From NCBI GenBank assembly GCA_903927025.1, contig CAIYLG010000002.1:62001-126000 (forward strand): a stretch of 64,000 bases of DNA, read 5' to 3'. The position numbers and the translations under genes were made by a program. Positions 19,710-29,545 of the stretch are shown here, one piece after another (the first letter of the stretch is position 1; each line of letters opens with the position of its first letter). The notes under the pieces were generated by a model. The model made no database searches. It saw only the letters and a list, made by a program, of their open reading frames with translations, and was not told the origin of the DNA. Source of the stretch: an uncultured Armatimonadota bacterium (GTDB taxonomy: Bacteria > Armatimonadota > Fimbriimonadia > Fimbriimonadales > Fimbriimonadaceae).

Positions 19710-20642
19710 CTAGTGACCCAATCGGGTCATTTGGAACTGGCTGATCGCCATAGCCGCCGCAATCACATCGGATCGCTTTTTGAGTCTGGTCTTGTGGTAG
19801 ATATTGTCAAGGTGCCGTTTGACGGTATGTTCCGAGATGAAGAGCGCCTGACCGATACTTTTCGTGTTTTTGCCTTGGGAAACCTGCACCAAGACTTCGA
19901 TTTCCCGATCGCTCAACTTCGCCAATTCTGCACCCAGATCGTCCGATGCATCCTGATGGCCAGACGCCCAATGGGCAATATCTACCTGCGCCGATTGGAT
20001 TCTCCGCAGCAGAGCCGCTGGCTTTTCCACCTGCAGACTTAGGTCGTCGAGGATGGCGTTAAACTTTTGAGCGTCTGTAGCAGCGCGATTGAGCGCGCCT
20101 TTCCTTTCAGCCTTCTCGACTTCGGCCTGAACGATCAGAGAGGCCCTTCTCCGCTGGATCAATTCGGTTGCCCGAAGGACCAGCCACTCGATCGCAGCAA
20201 GTGCTTCTTCGTCATAGGCATGGTGCGCGTAAGCCTGAATGGAAAGCACCCCATCGGGCAGCTGCGTGTGGGGGACTCCGATCCACATGGGCCAGTGAAC
20301 GGCTGAACATGTAACCGTTTCGAGGTTCGCAAATTGAATGTATGCGAGGCCCGCTGCGTGTTTGGGTTCAAGGATGATCTTGGGTTTCCCGTTGTTCGCA
20401 ACCCAACTGGTGGGGCCATTGCCAAAGGGATGGGGGTCTGGTCGATCAAAGCGGTCCCCTTCGCAGTTATAGACAAAATGAAGCCAATCCGGCGACCGCT
20501 GGACCCGGCACAGGTAGAAGGCATCCACCGTGACCAGTTGCGACGCTGCATCGTGAATCAGGCGGTGGAACTCCAACTCGGTAGAAACCGCAGTTCCGAG
20601 AAGCTTCTCGGCGGATAGGAACTGGCTGGCTGATGGGTTCAT
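19710..20642 (-). CDS. LuxR-type regulator with an N-terminal sensor domain
   Basis: 310 residues, cytoplasmic. Residues 15-165 are a GAF-like domain (FHRLIHDAASQLVTVDAFYLC, GNGPTSWVANNGKP, GVLSIQAYAHHAYDEEALAAIEWL), which usually binds a small ligand. A helical linker (150-235) follows, then a LuxR/FixJ helix-turn-helix at 240-300: LSDREIEVLVQVSQGKNTKSI and ISEHTVKRHLDNIYHK. It probably senses a cytoplasmic signal and controls transcription; targets are unknown. It is the last of three LuxR-type genes in this stretch, with 348 bases before the next one. Confidence 0.87.
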   Translation of the reverse strand: MNPSASQFLSAEKLLGTAVSTELEFHRLIHDAASQLVTVDAFYLCRVQRSPDWLHFVYNCEGDRFDRPDPHPFGNGPTSWVANNGKPKIILEPKHAAGLAYIQFANLETVTCSAVHWPMWIGVPHTQLPDGVLSIQAYAHHAYDEEALAAIEWLVLRATELIQRRRASLIVQAEVEKAERKGALNRAATDAQKFNAILDDLSLQVEKPAALLRRIQSAQVDIAHWASGHQDASDDLGAELAKLSDREIEVLVQVSQGKNTKSIGQALFISEHTVKRHLDNIYHKTRLKKRSDVIAAAMAISQFQMTRLGH

Positions 20643-20990: not shown

Positions 20991-21683
20991 CTACACCGCA
21001 GGTTGCTGTTCGGGCTGATCCGTCTCAATATCTTCTGGAGGCAACGTCTGTCTATCGCCTGTGAGCAGCGTGTGGTCGCGGCAGATCTTTACGATACCGA
21101 TTAAGTTGCCCTCTTCATCTAGTACCGTACTGGCGAAACCGCTCCCCCAGAACTTCGACCCATCCTTCCGCTGATGCCATCGCTGGTTGTTCGCCCGACC
21201 AAGTTCCATTGTTGCAGACAGTTCTTGTTGAAGCGCGCCCGCGCTACGATCAGCTTCGGTGAAAATGATTTCCGCTGAACGCCCAATCCACTCATTCTCA
21301 TCGTAACCGAAGACCTCCTTAACACCTTCGTTCCAAGTACGAATGATGCCGGTCGGCTCCATGATAAAGATCGCGAAGTCGGGAACGGATTCGACGACGA
21401 GCTTCATGATGTGCTCGTACTCTCGCTCGCTCCGCGATTTTTCTCGATAGAACTGAGCCAGCAGCTTGCTGATCGACTGAATCCGGTTGCGGGTTCCGAG
21501 CTTCTCCCGGATTCGATCCCAATAGGTTCGAATAGTTGCGAGTTGAAGATCCAAGCGTTTGGCGATCTCCTTATCTGTCAGTCCGTCTGCCGCCAAAAGC
21601 GCGACTTGGCTCTCTCGACCACTGAGTTCACCAGCCGGCGACCTGTCACTGTTGGATTTATTACTTAGCGACTGATTTTTCAT
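20991..21683 (-). CDS. HTH-PAS regulator (LuxR-type HTH first, PAS domain last)
   Basis: 230 residues from the ATG at 21683; a GTG 4 codons upstream is also possible. The LuxR-type helix-turn-helix is at the N-terminus (about 20-75: LSGRESQVALLAADGLTDKEI, ATIRTYWDRIREKLG). A short coiled linker leads to a PAS domain (about 95-215: VPDFAIFIMEPTGIIRTWNEG, GYDENEWIGRSAEIIFTEADR, RKDGSKFWGSGF, GIVKICRDHT). This order is the reverse of most PAS-LuxR proteins. The tail is acidic. It is a paralogue of the gene at 22242-22862, and the membrane protein gene at 21881 lies between them. Confidence 0.87.
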   Translation of the reverse strand: MKNQSLSNKSNSDRSPAGELSGRESQVALLAADGLTDKEIAKRLDLQLATIRTYWDRIREKLGTRNRIQSISKLLAQFYREKSRSEREYEHIMKLVVESVPDFAIFIMEPTGIIRTWNEGVKEVFGYDENEWIGRSAEIIFTEADRSAGALQQELSATMELGRANNQRWHQRKDGSKFWGSGFASTVLDEEGNLIGIVKICRDHTLLTGDRQTLPPEDIETDQPEQQPAV

Positions 21684-21880
21684 GGTGTGGTCCACTGGAG
21701 CCGTCCGACACAGTGCGGCTCCAAATTGGTTGAGAACGTCACGGATGGCTCCATGCCATCGTCATCGTCCTACTCGCAAATCGCTTTGCCGTTACAGATA
21801 CTTCGACGACCTTGACGTACAGGCTTAGGCACTGCCCCGTATCAAGACTCTCGAAAAAGTTTGGGATAGGAATTCAACGA

Positions 21881-22241: not shown

Positions 22242-22862
22242 CTAAGGTCTTGCCAGGCTCAACAAGCTGATGCAACCCACGATGTCGCCAGCCTCATCAG
22301 CTAACGGACTCACTCGCAGCTGCAGATCCTTGAATTCCCCATCCAGGCCAATGACCGACTCTTCGCCGGTTAGTGCCCTCAGGTGTGCCGCCACAGCGAG
22401 GTTCGTTGTATCTGTCGTCTTGAAGATCTCATAAACCGTTTTGCCGACCTCCCACTTGACTCCGCAGCGAGATGAAGGCAACGCCTCGTTTGCGAGGATA
22501 TTGATTTTGAGGCTGGTGTCGGTGGCCCAAACGGTGGCAGAGACTTGACTCATCGCAAAATGGAACCTTGCGAGCGTCGCCCTTGCCTCAAAGTCGCTGT
22601 CGTGATGATCAACGAGCATTGCCGTAAGCAGTTCGCGGCTTTCGTTTGTAGCTTGGAGCGCCTTTTCGGCTCTCCCCTTAATCACTCTAACAACCGTGTC
22701 CGTCCTACCCAAACCGCCAACTTTCAGCTTGATTCGCAACCAATACGTGTTGACGGTCCCTACGCTGATCCCGAGCCGGTGCGCGATCGCCTCATTGGTT
22801 AGACCTTCGGCGCACAGGCTCACTATCTCCTCTTCGCGGGGTGAGAGGTTTGTAGATGCCAT
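22242..22862 (-). CDS. HTH-PAS regulator (second copy)
   Basis: 206 residues. The start at 22862 is chosen because AAGGAG lies 5 bases upstream; a longer frame to 22949 lacks this. The N-terminal LuxR-type helix-turn-helix (about 5-60: LSPREEEIVSLCAEGLTNEAI, VGTVNTYWLRIKLKVG) is followed by a PAS-like domain (about 95-205: ATVWATDTSLKINILANEALP, KWEVGKTVYEIFKTTD, LQLRVSPLADEAGDIVGCISL). It has the same reversed architecture as the gene at 20991, and the recognition helix shares the TYWxRI pattern. It is divergent from the GH35 gene. Confidence 0.87.
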   Translation of the reverse strand: MASTNLSPREEEIVSLCAEGLTNEAIAHRLGISVGTVNTYWLRIKLKVGGLGRTDTVVRVIKGRAEKALQATNESRELLTAMLVDHHDSDFEARATLARFHFAMSQVSATVWATDTSLKINILANEALPSSRCGVKWEVGKTVYEIFKTTDTTNLAVAAHLRALTGEESVIGLDGEFKDLQLRVSPLADEAGDIVGCISLLSLARP

Positions 22863-23089
22863 TTCCGCTCCTTGACCCTTCAGCGAATCGAGGCGGTTCG
22901 TTGGAGTCAATTCAAGCCTACCGGCACGATCTACGAGTGGCAAGTCCATAAATCCTCTGACAAAGGCTCACTGACCTCGGAGGTGGCGGGAGGATTCGCG
23001 AATGTCTCGATTCGTTCAGACCATTCGGAACGTAGAGGTTAGCCGCGTGTTGAATGGTGTAAAACTCCACACGGTCGCAACGCAGCGCT

Positions 23090-25465
23090 ATGGTCAAGCT
23101 CGAGAATCGCCGCATCGTCATTGATGGAAAACCTCGCCTCATTATCTCGGGCGAGGTTCAGTATTTCCGCCTGAAGCGAGGCGAGTGGCGGGAACGCATT
23201 CGTCAGGCGAGAGAGGGGGGCCTCAACGCAATTGCCAGCTACATCCCGTGGATCTTTCACGAGGAGATCGAGGGAGATATCGACGTAACCGGGCGAAAGC
23301 TTCCGGAGCATGACGTGGCCGCATTCATCGATATGTGCCATGAAGAGGGCCTCTGGTTCCTGGCGCGGCCGGGCCCGTATCAGATGGCGGAGCTGAAGAA
23401 CGAGGGTTTGCCCTATTGGATCTTTACCAAGTATCCGGATGCTCTTTCCGAGACATGGGGCGGTAAGCGAGCCAACGGCAAGAACGTCGACTACCTCCAT
23501 CCAGGGTTTCTAGCGTCGTCCCGAAAGTGGTACGCCGCCATTATGCCAGTGTTGGCACAACGCCTCCAGCAGAACGGCGGCAACGTCATCGGAGTTCAGC
23601 TAGACAACGAAATCGGAATGCTGATGTGCTGGAACGAGCAGGCTGTTCTCAACGAGGACGTGCAGTGCGGCGTGGCCGCCTATGCCCAACACAAATATGG
23701 CCCGGACGCTGCCAATTTGAGATACGGGTTCGACCTCGCAGATCCCACCCTTCGGCGGACGAACTTCTGGAAGGGCGACTTTTCCAAGGCTCTCGCCTTC
23801 CATACCGACTATATCGAGTTCATGCGAGACCGCTTCGCCCAGTACATTGCGAAGCTCAAGTCCTTCGCGGAAGAGAACGGAGTTAGGGACGTCCCATTCA
23901 TCGTCAACATCCAGGGAACTGGCGGCGGCAGCGCCAAAACTTATCCGCTCGGCATCAGCGAAACGATGCGGTGCTTCAACCAAGCGCCCGGATACCTCCC
24001 TGCCAGCGACCAATATCTCAATGAACTGACCCGCGCCAATATTGCCGATTTGTACATGCTCAACGCGGTGACCGCATGCGTCAGCCGACCCGAACAGCCG
24101 CTGAGCTCCATCGAATTCCAGGCAGGAACCGGCGATTACGGCGAGAACGGCTCGGAACGGTTGACCGGTGCAGCGGCGGACTTTAAGGTCCGGCTCTGCC
24201 TGGTCCAGGGCAACCGGATGCTGAACCACTACACCTTTACTGCCGGCGTGAATCCCAAGCTGGAGGTTCCGCACGGCGACGGCAATGAGACGATCGGTAC
24301 CGGCGGGGAGCGGCACGACCCGACTTCGGCACCGATTGGAGTCGGCGGGCGGCTTGATCCGATCTACTTCTCAACGCGGGAAACCAACACAACGATGCTC
24401 GCGGTAGGCGACCTCCTCGCCGACATGGACGAAGAACTGGACAGCGTCCGGCTCGGGTTCGTGCCCGACTACTATTCCACCGACGTGAAGCCAGCGGGCC
24501 CGATGCGCGAGCTGGCAGTCAAACTGGAGAGCGCACGGGATCGCATCGGTGCGATCATGCGTCCGCTCCTCGATGCATCCTTCTCGTTTACGGCGGTCAA
24601 CCTGCAGGGTCCAATTCCCGCAGCCTGCCGGTCGATTGTCCTCTCCTGCGCCGTTTGCCTCCCCCACGACGTTCAGGAAAGACTGCTCGCTTTCGTCGAG
24701 GCTGGAGGCTCTCTCCTCTCGGTGGGCCGATTACCGGTAGAGGACCTGGAGGGGAACCCAGCCACCCTGCTGATTGACCGACTCGGCGTCAAGCCTGGGG
24801 GAATCCTGAACTCAGAGGGCAAGCACATGGGGATTCACGGCATCGGCTGGGCCAAGCACGAACCTCCGATGGCGGCATGGGAACTGCAGCATTTCACCTC
24901 AGCAGGAACGCCGTTTCTCCAAGTCCTTGGCTCCAGCGAGGTGTGCGGGGCGACAATTTCGCTCGGCAAAGGCAAGGTGGTGCTTGTCACCTGCGACCCA
25001 CCCGGAAGCCGCAGCTTCTGGGATGGAGTGTTCGCCGAATTGAATATTCATCCCCGAATAAGCCATGACTACGACTTCGGCGGCGTCGTTCTCAACCAGG
25101 TGAGCAACGGCAATGGCCAGAGCTTCATCAGCCTGGTGAACCTCGACCTTATCGACAAGGAGATGACCGTGCACGAGAACGGCAAATCTCTGTTTGATGG
25201 AAAGCTGATGTTGCCCGGCAAGAAGGCTAAGATGCTTCCCATCAACGTCTCGGTTGGCGGCCTCATGATTCACTGGTCCACCGCGGAGATCACGGAGGTG
25301 ACCAAGTCCGGTGTCTCCTTCCGCCAATCCTCAGCAGTAGAGCGGATCAGCTTGGCCGGCGATGTCAAAGTGGGGAAAGGCGCGAAGGTCGTCCGCACCG
25401 AGGGCCGAGGAACGATCGTCGAAATTGAACCCGGTTTCGGAACCGTCACGATAACTCCCAGGTGA
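23090..25465 (+). CDS. GH35 beta-galactosidase-like protein
   Basis: 791 residues without a signal peptide, so probably cytoplasmic, unlike most hydrolases here. The N-terminal TIM barrel has the GH35 opening (ENRRIVIDGKPRLIISGEVQYFR, AREGGLNAIASYIPWIFHE, WFLARPGPYQMAE). The acid/base is probably Glu174 in VQLDNEIG; Glu342 in SIEFQAG is a candidate nucleophile. The C-terminal half contains beta-galactosidase trimerisation-like (about 410-600) and beta-sandwich segments. The expected activity is removal of terminal beta-galactose from an imported oligosaccharide. It is divergent from the HTH-PAS gene; 227 bases separate them. Confidence 0.87.
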   Translation: MVKLENRRIVIDGKPRLIISGEVQYFRLKRGEWRERIRQAREGGLNAIASYIPWIFHEEIEGDIDVTGRKLPEHDVAAFIDMCHEEGLWFLARPGPYQMAELKNEGLPYWIFTKYPDALSETWGGKRANGKNVDYLHPGFLASSRKWYAAIMPVLAQRLQQNGGNVIGVQLDNEIGMLMCWNEQAVLNEDVQCGVAAYAQHKYGPDAANLRYGFDLADPTLRRTNFWKGDFSKALAFHTDYIEFMRDRFAQYIAKLKSFAEENGVRDVPFIVNIQGTGGGSAKTYPLGISETMRCFNQAPGYLPASDQYLNELTRANIADLYMLNAVTACVSRPEQPLSSIEFQAGTGDYGENGSERLTGAAADFKVRLCLVQGNRMLNHYTFTAGVNPKLEVPHGDGNETIGTGGERHDPTSAPIGVGGRLDPIYFSTRETNTTMLAVGDLLADMDEELDSVRLGFVPDYYSTDVKPAGPMRELAVKLESARDRIGAIMRPLLDASFSFTAVNLQGPIPAACRSIVLSCAVCLPHDVQERLLAFVEAGGSLLSVGRLPVEDLEGNPATLLIDRLGVKPGGILNSEGKHMGIHGIGWAKHEPPMAAWELQHFTSAGTPFLQVLGSSEVCGATISLGKGKVVLVTCDPPGSRSFWDGVFAELNIHPRISHDYDFGGVVLNQVSNGNGQSFISLVNLDLIDKEMTVHENGKSLFDGKLMLPGKKAKMLPINVSVGGLMIHWSTAEITEVTKSGVSFRQSSAVERISLAGDVKVGKGAKVVRTEGRGTIVEIEPGFGTVTITPR

Positions 25466-25610: not shown

Positions 25611-27710
25611 CTACAAGTCAAATAGGGCCTCAATGGCAATTGGTTTGCCCAGGCTCTCCTTCCAACGGTTGCGCTGCGAATCGGTGAGCAACGCCTCCAG
25701 TTGGCGTCCAAGGTCTGCCCGGAGACTCAACACTTGGTGCTGAACTTCGGCTTTGTTGGTTCCACTCTGGGCCCTGGCAGCCGCTGCCACCATTTTAAGG
25801 TGCATCGGCTCGATTGCTGCCATGAATTGAGCCCTTTCGTCGTCCGTGATCTGCAGATTCGCCCAAAGCCCAGGGCCGCCAAACAGGCCCTCTCGCTGTC
25901 TCACTAGCTCACCAAGTCGCTTCTGTTGGGCGTCCGTTAAGATATCTTTCAGCACCGATTCAAGGCTCCTCAGCGCCTTGGATCGATGCGTGTCGAAGTC
26001 GCCGCGACGCGCTTCATAGGATTGGAGAAATGCCGTCTCGGCTGGCGCTACCGTATGCAGGTATTTCTCAACCGCATCCTTCTGGTCAGGGGAAAGGCCA
26101 AGTTCTGCCTGGATCTTGTCCCGCGTAACAAGGAAGGAAAACCCGAACTCATGCCTCAGCTTTCTCCGCGTCTCTTCTGTGACGTCCTCGGTGACCGACG
26201 GCTCTCCATCACCCATCAGCTTCAGGATCGCTTCGGCTGCCTTCTCTGCTCGGTCGAAGTCCTTCGCCTGAAGTGCCGAGCCCAATTCCTGCATGAGCGG
26301 CTCTGCCTCAGCCTGCCTTCCCGTCTTCTGAATCCATGGAGGAAGCTCAGTCTGTATCCTGTGAATCTTCGGAGGCAGTCGCTCCAAAAGCGTGGGAGTT
26401 TCCGAATTCGTTTCAGTGAGGCGTCCTCCTCCAAGGAACTTCCGATAGGCCCCCAGGGCCTCTTCACTTTCAGTAACTTGCCGGAACTCGTTGTTCCGGT
26501 TTGCCTCGCCCCCGATTCCCCAGGAGAACACGTCCACGAGCGTCGCTCCATGGTTGAACATCTTCGCCAAGTAGGTTTCCATGTTCATGCCGGAATGCCC
26601 AGGACCCGCCCCGAGCTGCAGGTTGGTACCCTCGCAAGAGCCCCACCCCACCTGGTTGTGATCGGCCAGCTGAGCATATATATCGTCAAAAAGACCCGGT
26701 TGTGGGTAGGTCGAAAAGCCAGGCCGATGATTCTCACCAAACGCCACAGAAGGCGGCGCGAAGTGGTTGAATTTGGAATACGAGAGTGGTTTATTGTCGC
26801 CTTGGTCGAAGACACGGTGAGACAAAAACGCGGTATGCGAGTAAATTTTTTCAGTCGGAACACCCGCCTCCGCCAACCCTTTCGTCCACAAATCGATAAA
26901 TTCCTTCACCACCGCCTTGAGCTCAAGGTCCATGTCCTTGGGTGGGTGCTTGCGACTGAAGCCCCGGTTGGTGAGGGCCCTGTATCCCAGATAGTTGCCT
27001 GTCGCGAAGTCCTGACCGATCATCGTCTCGGAACCCGCAATGACTCCAGCAAATAGCTCCGACCGCTTGAGCGTGCCTAGCCTTTTCAGTTCCGCGGCGA
27101 TCGCTCTGCCAAAAACGATCGCTCGATGCTGAACTTCATGTTGAATCGAGGTGCTGTTGAAGCACATCTGGGGAGGAGCCTGCGTTGGCGTCTTCCCCCA
27201 ATCTAAGCGCCGACCGGTGCTTGGCGTGCCCTCCCAGTCCATTGCCTCCACATTCTTTGGGTCACTCCACAGATCCTTCCGGTTGCCCCAAAACATGGAA
27301 TCGTCGATCTTAATTCCGACGGCTAAGTTAGTCTCAAGGGCTAAGTCGAATCCGATCTTAATGAAACTTGTGATCTCTGCATCAGTTTGATCGAAACAGC
27401 CGATCGGACCGAGGAAGAATCCGAGCCGATTTTGGCGATCGCCAACAGTTCCAATTCGGTTCTTAATATCCTGGATATACGGCAGAAGAGGTGCTTTTGA
27501 TGGAAGGGTCGTACCTGACGTTCCGAAGCCTGCCATCTTCGGATCGGGGCTCCAGGTGAAAATCTGAAACGCGAGGTACCGGGTTTCAGACTCGATCCTC
27601 TTTGGTGATGTCCTCACATGAGGAGTCCGTTCTGGGACCCGGGCTTCCACCCCCTGACACAAGACGCATAGGATGCCCACCAAACCGAGGGAGAATGAAC
27701 TTAGCTTCAT
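25611..27710 (-). CDS. Secreted barrel-like protein with C-terminal Spy/LTXXQ-like domain
   Basis: 699 residues from the ATG at 27710, which gives a clear signal peptide (SFSLGLVGILCVLCQGVEA). Residues about 35-430 are not matched to a named family by eye; they contain glycosidase-like elements (RYLAFQIFTWSPDP, FFLGPIGCFDQTDAEI, NLAVGIKIDDSMFWGN, FAGVIAGSETMIGQD), suggesting a TIM barrel. Residues about 535-699 are helical with repeated L(S/T)xxQ-type motifs: LGLSPDQKDAV, ILTDAQQKRLGEL, LQITDDERAQF and LLTDSQRNRW, as in Spy/CpxP/CnrX periplasmic helical proteins. A Glu/Ala-rich linker lies between. It is divergent from a free-standing Spy-like sensor gene. Confidence 0.72.
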   Translation of the reverse strand: MKLSSFSLGLVGILCVLCQGVEARVPERTPHVRTSPKRIESETRYLAFQIFTWSPDPKMAGFGTSGTTLPSKAPLLPYIQDIKNRIGTVGDRQNRLGFFLGPIGCFDQTDAEITSFIKIGFDLALETNLAVGIKIDDSMFWGNRKDLWSDPKNVEAMDWEGTPSTGRRLDWGKTPTQAPPQMCFNSTSIQHEVQHRAIVFGRAIAAELKRLGTLKRSELFAGVIAGSETMIGQDFATGNYLGYRALTNRGFSRKHPPKDMDLELKAVVKEFIDLWTKGLAEAGVPTEKIYSHTAFLSHRVFDQGDNKPLSYSKFNHFAPPSVAFGENHRPGFSTYPQPGLFDDIYAQLADHNQVGWGSCEGTNLQLGAGPGHSGMNMETYLAKMFNHGATLVDVFSWGIGGEANRNNEFRQVTESEEALGAYRKFLGGGRLTETNSETPTLLERLPPKIHRIQTELPPWIQKTGRQAEAEPLMQELGSALQAKDFDRAEKAAEAILKLMGDGEPSVTEDVTEETRRKLRHEFGFSFLVTRDKIQAELGLSPDQKDAVEKYLHTVAPAETAFLQSYEARRGDFDTHRSKALRSLESVLKDILTDAQQKRLGELVRQREGLFGGPGLWANLQITDDERAQFMAAIEPMHLKMVAAAARAQSGTNKAEVQHQVLSLRADLGRQLEALLTDSQRNRWKESLGKPIAIEALFDL

Positions 27711-27790
27711 AGATCTGCTACCGCCGTGGCAACTCAAATGAGTCTCCACTCAACACTTACACTCAGATAGGACCCCTACAAGCCTCCAGC

Positions 27791-27832
27791 GGGAACATAT
27801 CCCCTGCCCTGGTTAATATCGACAATGTTCCC
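27791..27832. promoter_or_regulatory. Inverted GGGAACAT pair in the divergent promoter region
   Basis: GGGAACAT at 27791-27798 and its exact complement ATGTTCCC at 27825-27832 face each other across 26 bases in the 168-base spacer between the Spy-fusion gene and the Spy-sigma module. GGAAC resembles the -35 core of many ECF-dependent promoters, and one copy points towards each gene. The plus copy has TTAATA 16 bases downstream. It is either two divergent ECF promoters or one dyad operator. Confidence 0.5.
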
Positions 27833-27878
27833 GGAAAAGAGCAGCACCCGTCTCTACTCATAAAGCAGGAGAAATGAA

Positions 27879-28679
27879 GTGATCACAAGAATTGCATTGA
27901 TGTTCGCCGTCGTCGCCACGCTATGCGGGGCCGCCTTTACTTTGGGGAGCACGTCAACAGGAAGGCGTCAGGATGCTGGCGGAATTCCATCCGAGCATCC
28001 AATCGTCCTGGCCCTCCACTACCAGCATGAGTTGGCACTCTCTGATGAGCAGGTTCAGAAACTCAGCGCACTTCGGGACGCTTTAGGGAAGGAATTCGCA
28101 CCTTTCCATCAGCAGGCGGATGCGCTTCAGCAGCGAATGCAGGAACTGCAGCAGAGCGGAAATCCAGACCCAGCAACCGGGGCAAAGCTGAAACAGGATG
28201 CAGATGAACTCGGGGCAAAGATGAAGCCGATGTTTGATCGCTATTCTGAAGAGGTCGGCAAGCTTCTTTCGGATGAGCAGCGTCAGAAACTAATGAAGTT
28301 CTCTAGTGTAGCTGGGCACCCTTCAGACGGCCAAGAGTTCGTACTCAACACCATGATGCAGTCCCGGGAACAGCTCGGGATCACTCCGCAACAATTCACC
28401 CAGCTCCAGTATCTGCTGGCCGACTTTATCCGCGCATTCGCTCCGGTTCGCGAGAAGATGGAGTTGCTCCAACTTGAGATGAAGACAAAGTTTGCCGATC
28501 CAGGATCGACACCAACCCCGGAATATGTTGGCCGTGCCGCCGAGCTACAAAAGCAGGTCGCAGCACTTCAGTCTCAGTTCTCTGACCAGGCGGCAAAGAG
28601 CGTTTTGGAGCCCAAACAGAAGGCAAAGCTCGAGGAACTTCTTCATGGAGATCATCGCCCTCAATCCAACGGAGGTTAG
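27879..28679 (+). CDS. Spy/CnrX-like periplasmic sensor protein
   Basis: 266 residues from a GTG at 27879, with AGGAG 6 bases upstream. One N-terminal hydrophobic helix (residues 4-24) is a signal or membrane anchor. The rest is helical with four LTXXQ-type motifs: LALSDEQVQKL, LLSDEQRQKL, LGITPQQFTQL and VLEPKQKAKL. A His-bearing stretch (His40, His47, His50) lies just before the first helix, reminiscent of the metal ligands of CnrX. It overlaps an ECF sigma gene and precedes a one-TM protein, the gene set of CnrYXH-type metal-sensing systems. I infer a periplasmic sensor that controls the sigma factor; metal specificity is unknown. Confidence 0.78.
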   Translation: MITRIALMFAVVATLCGAAFTLGSTSTGRRQDAGGIPSEHPIVLALHYQHELALSDEQVQKLSALRDALGKEFAPFHQQADALQQRMQELQQSGNPDPATGAKLKQDADELGAKMKPMFDRYSEEVGKLLSDEQRQKLMKFSSVAGHPSDGQEFVLNTMMQSREQLGITPQQFTQLQYLLADFIRAFAPVREKMELLQLEMKTKFADPGSTPTPEYVGRAAELQKQVAALQSQFSDQAAKSVLEPKQKAKLEELLHGDHRPQSNGG

Positions 28680-29193
28680 GCCCGACTACAGCGCCGACCT
28701 GGAGCTTGCTCGCCGCTGCGCAACCGGCGACGAGCGAGCTCTGCGTGAAGCCTTTGAAGCTTACGAGTCGCTTTTGCGCAAGCTGATCTACCGAAACCTC
28801 GGCAGCCGAGAAGATGCCGAGGAACTTGTTGCGACTACGTTTTTGAAGTTCTGGAAATCAGCTCATCACTATCGGGGAATAAGTTCACTGCGAAGCTATC
28901 TCACACGCATCGCACTGAACCTCTGTCACGACGCAAGTCGAAAACGTCGTCTAAGCGTTGTCCCCGAACCCGCTTTGCCGTCTCAAGAAGAACACCCGCT
29001 TGCAGAACCGATCCGGCAAGGGCTCTTGCGGTTAGACCGCGAAGATCGGGAACTGCTGAGCCTTTACTACCTTGAGGATTGGGACTACAACGAGATTTGC
29101 GACAGTCTCGGCATCACGTACGACGTGCTCCGAACTCGTCTTGTACGCGCACGAAAGAAACTACGGCTCACCGTGGAGGAGAACAATGACTGA
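28645..29193 (+). CDS. ECF sigma factor
   Basis: 182 residues from the ATG at 28645, inside the end of the sensor gene (35-base overlap) with AGGAAC upstream; longer frames to 28492 are only the overlap. Region 2 is at about 15-80 (RDAEELVATTFLKFW-like SREDAEELVATTFLKFWKS, YLTRIALNLCHD), and region 4 at about 125-172 (REDRELLSLYYLEDWDYNEI, ITYDVLRTRLVRARKKL). It should direct RNA polymerase to stress or metal-responsive promoters, possibly including the GGGAAC sites upstream of its own operon. The overlap at both ends indicates tight stoichiometric coupling to sensor and anti-sigma. Confidence 0.92.
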   Translation: MEIIALNPTEVRPDYSADLELARRCATGDERALREAFEAYESLLRKLIYRNLGSREDAEELVATTFLKFWKSAHHYRGISSLRSYLTRIALNLCHDASRKRRLSVVPEPALPSQEEHPLAEPIRQGLLRLDREDRELLSLYYLEDWDYNEICDSLGITYDVLRTRLVRARKKLRLTVEENND

Positions 29194-29545
29194 CGAACAG
29201 TTCGACGAGATTTGTCGAAGCGCTCTCGCTTACGATCCTGGTGCGGCAAGCGAACCCACATGGTCGAAAATCCGCCGGAGGCCAAGGTGGAGTTGGCTCC
29301 CAACCATTCCCGAGACTCTGACCTGCGGCCTAGCTTGCGGCTTTATCCTCTTCGTATTTTGGGTCCAGCTTGGCCACAAGACGGGTCTTCCAACAGATTC
29401 CAATCCAGTGGTCCAAAAGGCCGTAGGAGGATCGTTGGCTGGGTTGCAGGCGTCCACGCTCCAGGTGCCAGATACGACTCAGTGGACTGAAGCCTCTCTC
29501 GGCTTTCCCAGAGTCATTGGGTCGGAGGCGAGGAAGGGTCGCTGA
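29186..29545 (+). CDS. One-TM putative anti-sigma factor
   Basis: 119 residues; the ATG at 29186 lies 8 bases inside the sigma gene, preceded by GGAGGAG. An N-terminal cytoplasmic segment of about 40 residues (DEQFDEICRSALAYDPG, TWSKIRRRPRW) is followed by one membrane helix (ETLTCGLACGFILFVFWVQLG, about 43-63) and a periplasmic tail of about 55 residues. No zinc-binding HxxxCxxC motif is present, as in CnrY-like anti-sigmas. Function is inferred from position directly after an ECF sigma gene and from this topology. Confidence 0.75.
   Translation: MTDEQFDEICRSALAYDPGAASEPTWSKIRRRPRWSWLPTIPETLTCGLACGFILFVFWVQLGHKTGLPTDSNPVVQKAVGGSLAGLQASTLQVPDTTQWTEASLGFPRVIGSEARKGR

Follow-up and report, generated by a model that had tools for sequence, protein, structure and literature searches.

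The window analysed here, a stretch of 64,000 nucleotides from an uncultured Armatimonadota bacterium, carries a gene in which a glycosidase-like barrel is fused to a tandem Spy-type domain; this enzyme-Spy architecture is recurrent, and in the window it adjoins a CnrYXH-like ECF sigma cassette, which here has a glycosidase-like partner. This arrangement suggests a link, undescribed so far, between surface glycan handling and envelope-stress control, and no earlier description of Spy/LTXXQ proteins with ECF factors or glycosidase fusions was found in the open-licence literature. The barrel represents an unclassified family with a glycosidase-like active site that spans more than 10 phyla; fusions, neighbouring genes and operons tie part of it to Spy-type proteins and ECF factors. 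Should this link prove functional, it would provide a testable coupling of surface glycan processing to envelope stress in the poorly studied Armatimonadota, Planctomycetota and Verrucomicrobiota, and tandem Spy domains on enzymes would gain a first candidate role. We regard it as about an even call that the cell exports the fusion as a glycosidase-like enzyme tethered to a Spy-type domain and that this protein is a member of the regulon of the adjoining ECF factor, for which the free-standing Spy/CnrX-like protein P0002 would be the sensor.

Table 1. Positions in the window of the fusion gene, its parts and the adjoining sigma genes
Feature	Position	Strand	Evidence or remark
Barrel-Spy fusion gene	25611-27710	(-)	699 aa, uninterrupted ORF; architecture repeated in other genomes
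Signal-peptide-like N-terminus, residues 1-26	27633-27710	(-)	Read off the sequence; low confidence in the AlphaFold model
Glycosidase-like (beta/alpha)8 barrel, residues 44-437	26400-27581	(-)	AlphaFold; VIA Z 24.9 against GH35; 66 related loci
E228 codon, candidate acid/base, end of beta4	27027-27029	(-)	Invariant in 68/68 homologues
E360 codon, candidate nucleophile, beta7	26631-26633	(-)	Invariant in 69/69 homologues
Helical hairpin, residues 441-498	26217-26390	(-)	Common to the Spy-like protein of the Verrucomicrobial operons
Tandem Spy-type domain, residues 513-699	25614-26174	(-)	Pfam LTXXQ in 13/14 relatives; fold matches STV, Spy, CnrX
Perfect inverted pair CGGGAACAT (27790-27798) / ATGTTCCCG (27825-27833)	27790-27833		Candidate divergent ECF -35 elements
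P0002, free-standing Spy/CnrX-like protein, candidate sensor	27879-28679	(+), divergent from the fusion gene	Pfam match
ECF sigma factor	28645-29193	(+)	Pfam Sigma70_r2 7e-16, r4_2 8e-11
Small membrane protein, 119 aa, candidate anti-sigma factor	29186-29545	(+)	One hydrophobic stretch

Translation of the fusion gene starts at an ATG at 27710, and the N-terminus resembles a Sec signal peptide, by which the protein would be exported. The AlphaFold model (mean pLDDT 86.7, about 87, from an alignment of 49 sequences) consists of the barrel, the helical hairpin and a helical C-terminal domain. The hairpin, although placed between barrel and Spy domain, is part of the barrel family itself, and homologues that consist of the N-terminal part by itself, some 490-590 residues long, stop near fusion residue 512, at the start of the C-terminal domain. 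Searched as a whole, the fusion protein gave no Pfam match above the cut-off (LTXXQ reached 13.8 bits) and no match in NCBIfam or among PDB sequences. An origin of the fusion as an assembly artefact was considered and rejected, given the identical boundary and domain in other genomes and a decayed remnant (80% identity) in genome G017.

The N-terminal part had been singled out in the first-pass annotation as resembling a TIM-barrel glycosidase of no recognised family, and both halves of that description held. The best VIA match of the predicted barrel is the GH35 beta-galactosidase 8faa (321 residues, 9% identity), followed by GH42 (Z about 21-22), GH14 beta-amylase (Z about 20) and then GH5. 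As in clan GH-A (GH35 and GH42; also GH14), the window protein is predicted to have a (beta/alpha)8 barrel with one glutamate at the end of beta4 and another at beta7, the positions of the acid/base and the nucleophile in that clan. In the predicted model these are E228 and E360, the probable catalytic pair. H292, Y335 and W356 likewise do not vary in any family member or in the window copy, and D136, where beta3 ends, is conserved in 63 of 64 homologues.

The barrel also differs from these known families. Identity to GH35, GH42 and GH14 is about 10%, the barrel matches no glycosidase profile of Pfam or NCBIfam, and its family possesses a C-terminal helical hairpin of its own and sometimes a Spy-type domain. 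Searches with the barrel sequence against Pfam, NCBIfam, PDB, plasmid records and viral contigs returned no match, and a Pfam scan of 14 family members found no meaningful family; judged by the model and by its two glutamates, the barrel family is probably a GH-A-like family that is new with respect to the Pfam and NCBIfam profiles. In most clan GH-A families an asparagine directly precedes the beta4 glutamate, whereas in the alignment of the barrel family this residue is Ser or Trp; moreover, the window copy has a lysine at position 134 (codon near 27309-27311), close to D136, where 58 of 64 homologues have histidine. Because of these two features the active site has to be read with caution. 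They might even be taken to mean that the barrel is devoid of catalysis and serves as a carbohydrate-binding module or a structural scaffold for the Spy domain, which we consider very unlikely in view of the family-wide invariance of E228, E360, H292, Y335 and W356, from which the window copy does not depart.

A single-sequence scan of genome contigs with the barrel revealed no relatives, against the 66 barrel loci retrieved by an alignment-based scan of 84,980 genomes. With about 69 homologues in all, the family is distributed over Armatimonadota, Planctomycetota, Verrucomicrobiota, Acidobacteriota, Chloroflexota, Proteobacteria, Bacteroidota and others. The majority of the homologues have no Spy domain, and many of those in Proteobacteria, Chloroflexota, Bacteroidota and a second paralogue group have neither a Spy domain nor a detected sigma neighbour. 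Barrel-Spy fusions occur elsewhere in a Gemmataceae locus (L048), in Acidobacteriia (L056), in a Verrucomicrobial locus (L070) and, as two copies, in an unclassified one (L055), while in Singulisphaera acidiphila (L087) the fusion is broken by an in-frame stop. At five loci (L050, L053, L070, L071 and L089) the Spy-type domain adjoins the barrel as a separate gene. On the barrel tree, the starred branches require the fusion label to have changed three or more times, and therefore the fusion has been gained or lost repeatedly. Within 24 barrel-bearing genomes, the strong class of the Spy subfamily (E <1e-50) lies mostly at the barrel gene, with four exceptions, a share that is biased upward since the profile seeds were picked by adjacency. 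The second paralogue group (L038, L039, L044 and L045) is divergent, about 38% identical and free of Spy domains; in some Armatimonadota its genes and those of the first group are arranged in tandem.

As for the C-terminal domain, it contains four LTxxQ-like motifs (LSPDQ, LTDAQ, ITDDE and LTDSQ), which suggest, at the level of sequence, two Spy units in tandem. The motif pattern had been likened at the outset to that of the free-standing Spy-like protein next door, and the domain is homologous to free-standing Spy-like proteins that occur throughout the phylum. Pfam LTXXQ (PF07813) scored the isolated window domain at 21.3 bits, just below the cut-off of 24.3, and matched 13 of 14 relatives, with a best E of 1.2e-6. 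Folded alone, the domain reached a pLDDT of 85, and the top 15 VIA matches, covering its second half only, were all STV, Spy, CnrX or NccX (Z 6.7-8.2), so that the C-terminus did not turn out to be unlike Spy/CpxP. A Z of about 8 is modest and ambiguous for helical bundles, and since the Foldseek E-values for the same entries exceed 0.5, the predicted Spy/CpxP-type fold is supported, short of proof. With the Spy/CpxP/ZraP (LTXXQ) proteins the window domain shares the LTxxQ motifs and, in the predicted model, paired helical hairpins; it differs from them in having four motifs per chain and in being fused behind an enzyme-like barrel.

We also considered that this Spy-type domain might be exclusive to the barrel, an idea rejected upon finding strong relatives without a barrel at four loci (L150-L153). 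At one of these loci (L151, 1-2274) two copies of the window's Spy-type domain are joined to a thioredoxin-like protein, and a gene related to this thioredoxin-like gene lies upstream of the barrel in L050. Another encodes a TolB-like propeller protein bearing the helical hairpin of the barrel family (L152, 7325-9402), after which comes a free-standing gene for a Spy-type protein of this subfamily.

Next to the fusion gene, the divergent Spy-like gene and the ECF sigma gene reported by the first-pass annotation are both present. P0002 matches Pfam Metal_resist (PF13801) at 36.3 bits, above the cut-off of 29.2, and LTXXQ at 29.2 bits; the candidate anti-sigma factor had no family match in the Pfam search. 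The Spy-fold periplasmic protein CnrX is thought to switch the anti-sigma factor CnrY and thereby to release CnrH (PMC4598750). Like the CnrYXH system of Cupriavidus metallidurans, the window encodes together a Spy-fold periplasmic protein, a small one-helix anti-sigma candidate and an ECF factor; in contrast to CnrYXH, no metal efflux genes were noted adjoining the window system, and the linked product is a glycosidase-like barrel.

The neighbourhood is preserved, in part, in related genomes of the Fimbriimonadaceae. In G004 the sigma layout of the window is kept and the barrel is unfused, while in G161 the genes for sigma factor, membrane protein and unfused barrel all run in one direction; in both genomes the anti-sigma candidate stays beside the sigma gene. 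In G017, of the same genus, the last 30 residues of the fusion survive only 13 bp from the truncated gene of the anti-sigma candidate (L143, 8580-8924), and because the fusion remnant sits so close to the rest of the membrane-protein gene, a single deletion probably took out the fusion, Spy and sigma genes together. Across 291 genomes, P0002 orthologues are limited to G000 and G004, with a more distant relative (34%) in G074, and these two genomes are also the sole barrel carriers within the genus.

In the intergenic region between the two divergent genes, the arms of the perfect inverted pair, CGGGAACAT and ATGTTCCCG, are spaced by 26 nt, and the orthologous region of G004 has GGGAACAT and ATGTTCCC at the same place, 29 nt apart, in different surroundings. 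Since GGAAC is the usual ECF -35 core, the pair may constitute two divergent promoters, or else an operator for another regulator; given its conservation as GGGAACAT...ATGTTCCC in a related genome, the ECF factor may drive both sides. The pattern occurs four times in 291 genomes, two of the occurrences being those in the window and in G004 and one lying inside an unrelated coding gene, as compared with two occurrences among reversed controls in the same search. Inspection by eye of the sequence behind the GGGAACAT sites disclosed no shared -10 element. Scanning the genome for regulon members with GGGAACAT by itself was not informative either, as there were 68 hits on one strand and 84 on the other, compared with 68 and 59 for the reversed control.

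Beyond this family, the link to ECF genes is met again in four Verrucomicrobial loci (L052, L055, L071 and L089), where the genes follow the order ECF factor, membrane protein, Spy-like protein, in some cases a Spy-type domain, and barrel. When 384 genomes were searched for the barrel by itself, six carriers came up, two of them new; of these two, G562 has the sigma operon of the Verrucomicrobial type and G377 does not show it. The barrel protein in the operon of G562 (849 aa; L167, 6400-8949) ends in a TolB/PD40-type-propeller-like region instead of a Spy domain. A plain tally of ECF genes up to 8 kb away was considered too weak a measure, and distance and gene order were used instead. On this basis 7 of the 31 genomes have an ECF gene at most 2.7 kb from the barrel gene, where 1.03 would be expected (P 6e-5), and P amounts to 0.003-0.018 with related genomes merged into 5 or 4; the genomes showing the linkage contain one ECF gene per 142-284 kb. 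The window ECF factor and the Verrucomicrobial one share 34% identity over 44 residues (E 0.001) and are not detectably of the same group.

One could argue, then, that the barrel is simply a glycan-degrading enzyme, that its Spy domain does no more than chaperone or attach it, and that the adjoining sigma genes are incidental in the lineage of the window. Such a reading would accommodate the thioredoxin-like fusion and the propeller neighbour of the same Spy subfamily (L151 and L152), as well as the majority of barrel homologues that have no sigma neighbours; we nevertheless find it rather doubtful, since the linkage is above chance, persists in three Fimbriimonadaceae genomes and reappeared prospectively in G562, and since the divergent GGGAACAT pair is conserved.

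The opposite possibility, closer to what the first-pass annotation had in mind, is that the barrel-Spy protein is itself the sensor, so that glycan bound or cut by the barrel would alter the Spy domain and, through the anti-sigma candidate or P0002, the activity of the sigma factor. Homologues are not invariably remote from sigma factors, as the ECF linkage recurs in several phyla; barrels that are fused to Spy-type proteins, or that adjoin them and ECF genes, are found repeatedly there too, and the predicted fold of the C-terminus is similar to that of the ECF sensor CnrX. On the other hand, outside the window most fused loci have no nearby ECF gene, L055 being the exception, and a better-placed sensor is at hand, namely P0002 or the Spy-like protein of the operon. 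In addition, unfused barrels coexist with intact sigma systems in G004, G161 and L052, which makes it less likely that the barrel reports glycan state to the sigma factor. We therefore hold this sensor role to be unlikely, and it seems improbable as well, in more general terms, that a glycosidase-type barrel acts as an ECF input domain, with an envelope glycan, on being bound or turned over, altering a fused or partner Spy/CnrX-type domain and through it the anti-sigma control, and that such a device was assembled more than once in different phyla. Of the originally proposed coupling of glycan or envelope state to sigma control, the recurrent association with ECF genes thus stands, but P0002 is a better candidate for the sensor than the fusion. 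As P0002 occupies the position of CnrX beside the ECF factor and the anti-sigma candidate, the fusion is more simply understood as a member, or effector, of the regulon.

In the regulon reading that we favour, P0002 would sense a periplasmic condition and act via the small membrane anti-sigma candidate, in the manner of CnrX on CnrY, upon which the freed sigma factor would transcribe its own operon and, from the divergent intergenic region, the barrel-Spy gene. The barrel-Spy protein, as a product of this regulon, would then act on an envelope or extracellular glycan, with its Spy domain most likely keeping the enzyme folded or anchoring it at a stressed site of the envelope; a further possible role of this domain is feedback on the sensor, of the kind that CpxP exerts on CpxA.

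Two further observations concern the surroundings of the fusion gene in the window. Convergent with it lies a GH35/exo-glucosaminidase-like gene (23090-25465, plus strand; Pfam GH35 E 1e-39, with a GLMA second domain), which is not kept beside the barrel in G004. Farther along, on the minus strand, three consecutive genes resemble LuxR-type regulators with sensor-like parts (19710-20642, 20991-21695 and 22242-22949).
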